A stretch of DNA of 64,000 nt, from NCBI RefSeq assembly GCF_000019665.1, contig NC_010794.1, forward strand, positions 620,001-684,000, written 5' to 3'. The position numbers were made by a program, and so were the translations under genes. The notes below the pieces were generated by a model. That model was not told the DNA's origin. It saw nothing but the letters and a program-made list of their open reading frames with translations, and did no database searches. The DNA is from Methylacidiphilum infernorum V4. GTDB taxonomy: Bacteria; Verrucomicrobiota; Verrucomicrobiia; Methylacidiphilales; Methylacidiphilaceae. Shown in pieces: positions 10,190 to 11,820 of this stretch; the first letter of the stretch is position 1, and every line of letters starts with the position of its first letter.

Positions 10190-10336
10190 AATTCTGATTT
10201 GTAATGCTATAAAACCATTTTAAAAGTATTTATTCTCCATTTATTCCGCAAAAAAAAAACATACTACCATAATATCCCGCTATTAAAAATGAAATCTTGT
10301 TAAAAGTTCTCTTTCCGTTTATTTATTTCATCTCCA

Positions 10337-10690
10337 TTACTCACTGGAGACTCCAACCTTCAGGCGGGAGAGGAAAGGGAGTCCTCGTTTGGTTACGTCT
10401 CCCCCGGTTGCCCGGAGGAGCCGTTTTTTTGCCCTTACGGGTCAATTGCGGCGCTCCTTTCGGGGCCTCTCCCCTCGGGAATGTTGCATGTCGGCCTTCT
10501 GCCGGAGCCCACCAGCACTCTTGCCCTCGGGGTTGTCTGCAACCCTGGGCATCGAGAGGCCGGGACTAAAGAAGCATCCCGATGTCGGTCTTTTGCTCTC
10601 CATGCAACGTAGCGGGTTGGTTAGCGCTTTCCCTGGTCAACCTGGGCTGGACTTGCGGCAAGCCTCCGACTTCAGTCGGGGGTGGTGGAC
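10337..10690 (+). mobile_element. Non-autonomous IS200/IS605-like relic or orphan structured RNA
   Basis: This stretch is visibly more GC-rich than its AT-rich flanks and has no credible gene. At the left an imperfect hairpin at 10351-10370 (CTCC..CC-TTCA-GG..GGAG) lies 10 nt after a TTAC at 10337-10340, the target tetranucleotide used by several IS200/IS605 elements. At the right an 8-bp stem at 10663-10682 has the same TTCA loop and resembles IS605 right ends. Inside are strong stems: 10481-10490 with 10601-10610, 10530-10535 with 10540-10545, and 10465-10471 with 10554-10560. The first and last would form a pseudoknot. No transposase or tnpB frame was found. Alternatives are a PATE-like element, a decayed tnpB/omega-RNA region, or an independent structured ncRNA. 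Confidence 0.42.
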
Positions 10691-11820
10691 AATCCCAGTA
10701 ATTGCGCTTGCCAGGGGCAAATCTTATCCTCATCGATCAGCTTTTGGCAACCCGACCCGGGGTGGAGCGCCATTTCTGACAAAAGGTTTCTCGAGGCGAT
10801 CAAGGCAGGATCTATACCGAGAAAAGAAGCGATTTTGTCTCGTTTATTTTTTAGTACTTCAAATCTTTTGGCCGCTTCTTTATCAAAAAGAAATAATTTT
10901 TTGGGTCCGGGCGATTCTTTCCAAGATCCATTTTGTTTTCCCTTTTCTATAGCTTTGAGCAAATCCCCAACGACTTCTCTTTCCAATCTTTGAACAGCGG
11001 GAATCGCTGCAATCGATCCACCGTGAGCAGAAATAAAACTGATTTGAACGAGATCTTCGCTCTTGATGATTTTGAATGGAGGGGTGTCTCTTAAAAGGGC
11101 AAGTTCTTTGCGCCACTTTTGCAGTTCGAACAAGATGGACTGGCCCAAGAAATCGAGTTTATGAACTCCTTCAATCCTTTCCCATTCTTTCGGAGAACCA
11201 AGAAAAGAATTTTCGATTTTTCTCTGGATCCTTTTACAGCTTTGTTCCATCCACTCCCATCTCCCTAGGCTCTTGAGGAGCCTCGTTAAAATTTCTTTGA
11301 GTTTTTCAAGATAAAGCACATCCTTGGCCGTATAATTGATGAGAGAGGGAGGAAGGGGCCTACGGGACCAATCGGCTTTTTGATGTTCTTTGGTCAGCTT
11401 GACCTGGAAAAATAAGGAAACAAGCCGAGCATACCCGACAGCTTCAAAACCACAAAGTTTAGCAGCGATGTGGGTATCAAAGATAGTTCGGGGTTGAGGG
11501 CACCCGGCCTTTCTGAGCATTTTCAAATCGTAATCCATTCCATGGCAGATCCATTCGGATCTGGAAAGAATGTCCCAGAGGGCGGATAGGTCATCTTTAA
11601 GGCAGTCAACAACGGCCAAATGTTGTCCTTGGCATAGGGAGACCACGCAGAGCTTTTCAGGATAATGATGAAGACTGTCTCCTTCAATGTCGATGGCAAT
11701 GGGCTTGAATGGATCGATCAACAACAGGAAATCTTGAAGGGCATTTTTGTTGTCGATCCACTTGATCGGTCGGTCTGTTGAAAAAATCGAGGCTCGTTGA
11801 ATTTCTTTTTTTTGTTCCAT
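10672..11820 (-). CDS. rnd: Ribonuclease D (3'-5' exoribonuclease)
   Basis: A 382-residue protein. The DEDDy nuclease residues are visible: D44 and E46 in AIDIEGD, D98 in HGMDYDLK, and Y163 with D167 in YTAKDVLYL. An HRDC-like domain follows in the C-terminal third, with FEVLKNKRDKIASFLGIDP. RNase D trims tRNA and other stable RNA 3' ends using divalent metal. The last codons (after CPWQAQLLG) and the stop lie in the right hairpin of the structured element, so insertion may have replaced the original 3' end. The domain core appears intact. Confidence 0.9.
   Translation of the reverse strand: MEQKKEIQRASIFSTDRPIKWIDNKNALQDFLLLIDPFKPIAIDIEGDSLHHYPEKLCVVSLCQGQHLAVVDCLKDDLSALWDILSRSEWICHGMDYDLKMLRKAGCPQPRTIFDTHIAAKLCGFEAVGYARLVSLFFQVKLTKEHQKADWSRRPLPPSLINYTAKDVLYLEKLKEILTRLLKSLGRWEWMEQSCKRIQRKIENSFLGSPKEWERIEGVHKLDFLGQSILFELQKWRKELALLRDTPPFKIIKSEDLVQISFISAHGGSIAAIPAVQRLEREVVGDLLKAIEKGKQNGSWKESPGPKKLFLFDKEAAKRFEVLKNKRDKIASFLGIDPALIASRNLLSEMALHPGSGCQKLIDEDKICPWQAQLLGLSTTPD

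Follow-up and report, generated by a model that had tools for sequence, protein, structure and literature searches.

Several described systems resemble the locus analysed here. PATEs are haloarchaeal elements with palindromic ends of the IS200/IS605 type and a TTAC-like target. TldR-type proteins are exapted TnpB regulators, and involve a guide RNA of transposon origin near host genes. The closest systems are the HEARO RNAs, now named the omega-RNAs of IscB (PMC9755519). OgeuIscB forms a 17-bp heteroduplex (PMC9640706), the TAM of DtIsrB is NTGA, and stand-alone omega-RNAs are known to work with IscB (PMC9581776). We analysed a stretch of 64,000 nucleotides of the genome of Methylacidiphilum infernorum V4 (hereafter the window) and found in it an element of this known kind, since HEARO RNAs and stand-alone omega-RNAs have already been described. 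The exact placement of such elements on start codons is the interesting part of the case.

The minus strand at 10463-10690 matches the HEARO RNA (Rfam RF02033) over model positions 1-211, with a score of 96.9 bits (gathering score 83 bits) and an E-value of 1.3e-18. Besides tRNAs, this is the sole RNA family match returned by cmscan for the whole window. The initial annotation had described a structured element at 10337-10690, had implied the opposite strand, and had offered a stand-alone omega-RNA or an unrelated ncRNA among its readings. The Rfam match places the RNA on the minus strand and overrules the unrelated ncRNA. It retains the stand-alone omega-RNA, the kind being IscB/HEARO and not TnpB. 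The annotation's PATE-like reading holds along with it, in so far as the element is MITE-like, of the IS200/IS605 type and devoid of a transposase. The extent becomes 10332-10690 once the copies and the empty site are aligned. Open reading frames run across the element, but they overlap structured RNA with covariation, and a coding origin was rejected. The parts of the locus, all on the minus strand, are as follows.

10332..10690, minus strand: complete nuclease-less HEARO element of 359 bp, delimited by the five-copy alignment and the empty site in congeners.
10463..10690, minus strand: HEARO RNA/omega-RNA scaffold with its 5' end at 10690 (Rfam RF02033).
10332..10462, minus strand: 3' tail, which carries the terminal (right-end) hairpin of the element but no IscB ORF, and is conserved across the five copies.
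10351..10370, minus strand: right-end terminal hairpin, CTCCAACC-TTCA-GGCGGGAG with two mismatches, decayed relative to its sister copies (CCCCAGC-CTGAAT-GCTGGGG).
10666..10679, minus strand: 5' hairpin of the omega-RNA, CCGAC-TTCA-GTCGG, containing the present rnd stop codon (model mapping; compensatory changes at 10678/10667 and 10676/10669 among the own copies).
10483..10490, minus strand: 3' arm of the nexus stem, pairing with 10601-10608 (HEARO model mapping and covariation).
10601..10608, minus strand: 5' arm of the nexus stem (HEARO model mapping and covariation).
10554..10560, minus strand: 5' strand of the nexus pseudoknot, GCCUCUC (model mapping; 26-28 of 30 copies keep the inner pairs, and the outer ones are weaker).
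10465..10471, minus strand: 3' strand of the nexus pseudoknot, GAGAGGC (model mapping and covariation).
10691..10707, minus strand: predicted guide, the 17 nt 5' of the scaffold (GCGCAATTACTGGGATT), which are the 3' end of the rnd coding sequence (position taken from the OgeuIscB heteroduplex).
10328..10331, minus strand (TCAT on the forward strand): ATGA insertion target, including the former rnd stop TGA (empty-site comparison; ATGA flanks the 3' end in all five copies).
10672..11820, minus strand: rnd, RNase D-like (DNA_pol_A_exo1 and HRDC), whose last residues STTPD and stop codon come from the element.

The element shares with HEARO RNAs the full 211-position match, the nexus stem and pseudoknot, and the 5' position of the guide. 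It differs from them in lacking an HNH/RuvC nuclease gene after the RNA, as the 3' tail runs straight to the element end. Very probably it derives from an IscB element of the IS200/IS605 type and is itself non-autonomous and MITE-like, having retained both ends and the HEARO/omega-RNA gene and lost iscB. The observations behind this reading are the structure, the copy number, the exact insertion before ATGA without duplication, and the absence of a detectable IscB or Y1 TnpA in the genome.

The structural features named in the initial annotation are not due to chance: they map onto the Rfam HEARO model on the minus strand and show strong covariation. The 10-bp long-range stem (10481-10490 with 10601-10610) is the HEARO nexus stem, and the 7-bp pairing that crosses it (10465-10471 with 10554-10560) is the nexus pseudoknot, which we compared with the one in PMC9640706. 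The nested hairpin is present at about 10501-10550. Hairpins with a TTCA loop do exist at both ends, the left one of the annotation being the right-end hairpin of the element and the right one the 5' hairpin of the RNA, but the shared loop is only partly meaningful: it is conserved among the own copies in the right-end hairpin and varies in the 5' hairpin. Across 30 copies, drawn from the own genome and four others, 70.5% of cells form the structure, versus 62.1% in shuffles. Compensatory changes, proposed as the sign of a conserved RNA, are abundant, with 142 double-change cells versus 49.7 in shuffles (20-53 in slid controls). The covariation score is 0.250 versus 0.114 in shuffles (at most 0.120 in slid versions), and 24 pairs changed on both sides. 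Of the 53 tested pairs, every one of the five own copies has kept 45-52, and three pairs are fully compensated among them. The folding energy is unremarkable (z -1.04), so energy by itself would not have revealed the structure. The contrary picture, of a single-copy locus without covariation or a decayed coding gene, did not come true.

The genome (one contig of 2,287,145 bases, 99.97% complete) contains five HEARO copies, all above the Rfam cut-off. They are 359-364 bp long, have pairwise identities of 74-88% and share sharp ends, which in RNA orientation read GTCAACC... at the 5' end and ...GCGGAAA..CG at the 3' end, followed by ATGA. A TTAC had been taken for the IS200/IS605 target. This motif (10337-10340) lies inside the window element, the other four copies read GCGGAA there, and the target is ATGA. 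Hence, the expectation of multiple copies was borne out, but not that of TTAC at their flanks. The comparison with PATEs fares likewise. The element shares with PATEs and other IS200/IS605-derived MITEs the small size, the IS200/IS605-type ends, the lack of a transposase and the presence of several copies. It differs from them by its complete omega-RNA scaffold and its ATGA (TCAT) target in place of TTAC.

We searched the joined flanks of the five own sites in relatives and aligned them across the junction (marked here by a slash). At rnd, three sister genomes read ...GGATT/ATAAAA, while the own genome reads ...GGGATT, the element, and then ATGAAATAA. Without the element, rnd would read TTA TGA (...LLGL and stop), hence the insertion split the codon preceding the stop. 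The window copy thus sits on the rnd stop codon (TT/ATGA) and changed the C-terminus from LLGL to LLGLSTTPD. The present stop (10672-10674) lies in the loop of the first omega-RNA hairpin, in agreement with the earlier observation that the rnd stop falls inside the right hairpin. The empty site at ygfZ reads ...AAAAAA/ATGAACGAA. Divergence of the relatives' flanking sequences prevents a reading to the exact base at the remaining three own sites. Three relatives (G001, G003 and G009) have nuclease-less elements too, and most of the corresponding empty sites in congeners can be read to the base, e.g. GGAGATAAAGAAA/ATGAAACA and GAAATTTTTC/ATGAATCTT. At three loci (L015, L023 and L034), the difference from the empty site extends beyond the element, to between a few and some tens of bases immediately 5' of it. 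We saw no target duplication at the aligned empty sites. Insertion took place directly 5' of ATGA, which is the 3' flank in all five own copies. These are hallmarks of the IS200/IS605 type: subterminal hairpins, insertion beside a fixed tetranucleotide and no target duplication.

The proteins expected to accompany such an element were searched in the own genome. RRXRR (PF14239) gave no match, and the only match to the IscB model NF040563 is an ordinary HNH protein common to nearly all relatives. This protein (about 206 aa, C1:1144989-1145231) scores weakly against the model. Y1_Tnp (PF01797) also had no match, in line with the lack of a transposase remarked on before, while three relatives (G001-G003) have 12, 15 and 48 matches. 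The element can therefore be named an IS200/IS605-type element only as a derivative. OMEGA systems are recognised by a RuvC(/HNH) nuclease downstream of the RNA or in the same genome, and none was found in either place. The five copies are therefore orphans. They resemble the stand-alone omega-RNAs that act in trans with IscB (PMC9581776) in having no adjacent nuclease, but no IscB was found in their genome, which leaves them with no known partner. Similarly, the element shares with TldR-type regulators a transposon-derived guide RNA near host genes, but no effector protein was found.

HEARO copies occur together with IscB in four relatives (G001, G003, G009 and G011), where the longest IscB frames measure 433-526 aa. 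The short elements of IscB-bearing relatives (417-467 bp) have the same tail as the IscB elements, and hence are internal deletions of these. The own subfamily, sought with a 32-nt pattern in 84,980 species, had no match outside the own genome, and no autonomous parent of it was found; the phage records searched had no match either. With the stricter filters applied to a phylum sample of 388 genomes, HEARO matches were confined to the own genus, apart from a weak one in a single further genome; this sample shows no match from the genus of G009 and G011, where the other search found HEARO copies. The nearest outside relatives are HEARO RNAs on plasmids of Cupriavidus, Polaromonas, Methylobacter and Pseudomonas, where they lie upstream of iscB in records with a complete gene table.

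In four of the five own copies, the 3' ATGA is the start of a real gene (6-phosphogluconolactonase-family, sigma-70-region-4-like, GCV_T/YgfZ-like and zinc alcohol dehydrogenase). Among the 17 distinct nuclease-less sites of four genomes, counting once the orthologous site of L019 and L020, 13 begin a frame of at least 74 aa. The genes at these sites include LptF/LptG, squalene/phytoene synthase, Tubulin_2, NUDIX and two further alcohol dehydrogenases, and one site (L027) has ATGG in place of ATGA. Of the four others, the window copy and L034 (G001) sit on a TGA stop, L012 ends about 19 bp upstream of a frame, and the last is L032. A rough gene call makes 25 of the 576 ATGA in the window likely starts and puts 68 outside genes. 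A result of 13 out of 17 has a binomial probability of 4e-15 if all ATGA serve as the reference and of 3e-5 if only non-coding ATGA do. This baseline is rough, as genes were called from the first ATG of long frames, sites in these lineages are partly dependent on one another, and the same data had first suggested the pattern. A literature search, which did not reach the original descriptions (Weinberg 2009, Altae-Tran 2021), found no paper joining HEARO and ATGA.

Some start-codon sites have further peculiarities. Three of the five own copies (L006, L007 and L010) are followed by ATGATGAA, with two in-frame ATGs, where adh and pgl of relatives have a single one. The adh start codon bears a HEARO element both in the own genome (L010, 361 bp) and in G003 (L035, 462 bp). 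The two belong to different subfamilies, and represent either independent insertions at one start codon or a replacement.

Could the placement reflect use by the host? Orphan omega-RNAs might be kept as structured 5' leaders, or as a 3' trailer at rnd, that control the adjoining gene by themselves or together with some other host protein. The position exactly before start codons in most own copies and nuclease-less sites would fit, as would an RNA structure kept without a nuclease. At adh, a promoter-like, TTATAAT-containing region common to the empty orthologue is retained upstream of the element. Promoter scans did not rise clearly above shuffles. However, the orthologues of sister species manage without the element, and IscB-bearing elements are placed likewise: plasmid iscB elements end on start codons in Pseudomonas, Polaromonas JS666, Cupriavidus basilensis and a Deinococcus copy. 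The placement thus belongs to the element family as such and does not set the orphans apart, and exaptation as a regulator is unlikely. Among the IscB-carrying elements of G003, one intact and one decayed end on start codons and three or four others do not. The Deinococcus element (sp. KNUC1210, plasmid unnamed6, L173) separates parA from parB, and its 3' end falls on the start codon of parB.

Alternatively, the copies could be decayed remains of full IscB insertions, the short form having no mobility of its own, much as the short forms of relatives arose by internal deletion. We consider this very improbable: five near-equal lengths at unrelated sites, each with exact ends, indicate that the short form itself moved, and iscB remnants of differing length are absent from the copies. 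A TnpB-type omega-RNA or an unrelated riboswitch-like ncRNA can be dismissed despite 19 genome matches to the TnpB zinc-ribbon domain family. It is refuted by the Rfam match, which is the only one, and by iscB-linked homologues. The element has the same ends and the same ATGA target as the relatives' IscB elements, and the repeat linked to tnpB has a different sequence.

That repeat is about 150 bp long, and one copy adjoins a HEARO element (L006:1740-1900, minus strand, i.e. C1:1397035-1397195 of the own genome). It has 28 matches in the own genome, mostly at 73-86% identity, and many more in relatives. Copies lie directly beside TnpB-domain matches at 1401035, 1773972, 2198638 and 169677, and about 20 are away from any tnpB match. 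Because several copies adjoin TnpB-domain matches, it is probably the TnpB omega-RNA/right end.

If the element is an IscB derivative, its spread may be pictured as follows. A Y1 transposase would insert it in trans, acting on its ends and an ATGA site. Most ATGA inside genes would be costly targets, while ATG-A starts and A-TGA stops would leave the protein nearly intact. The guide corresponds to host DNA 5' of the element, so a guide-bearing omega-RNA would need a promoter outside the element. Sites between a promoter and a start codon would be suitable, and so would those where a transcribed gene ends, as at rnd; start-codon sites would thus put the omega-RNA under a host promoter. Transcription with the 5' flank (as read-through of rnd here, and from the promoter of the following gene at other sites) would yield an omega-RNA with a flank guide of about 17 nt. 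With this guide, an IscB acting in trans could cut the empty allele (flank and ATGA), which would restore the element and favour its retention. Judged from sequence alone, the arrangement of flank and ATGA fits the NTGA of DtIsrB. We thus propose, tentatively and with more doubt than confidence, that HEARO elements are filtered onto start codons, where ATG followed by A is both target and TAM, since only insertions downstream of a host promoter give a useful guide. The host 5' UTR would become the guide that protects the insertion, and orphan copies would be ready-made RNA leaders, possibly regulatory, that persist after loss of the nuclease. In its own genome, the element is at present an orphan, and is inert or no more than a structured leader or trailer.

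In this complete genome, five structured omega-RNA elements inserted at ATGA occur where neither a nuclease nor a transposase is detectable, and congeners provide base-exact empty sites for the element family. It offers a clean natural case in which to ask how the guide RNAs of IscB can spread and be maintained in the absence of the protein. The placement on start codons provides a testable link between the TAM (ATGA), the transcription of the guide and the retention of the element.
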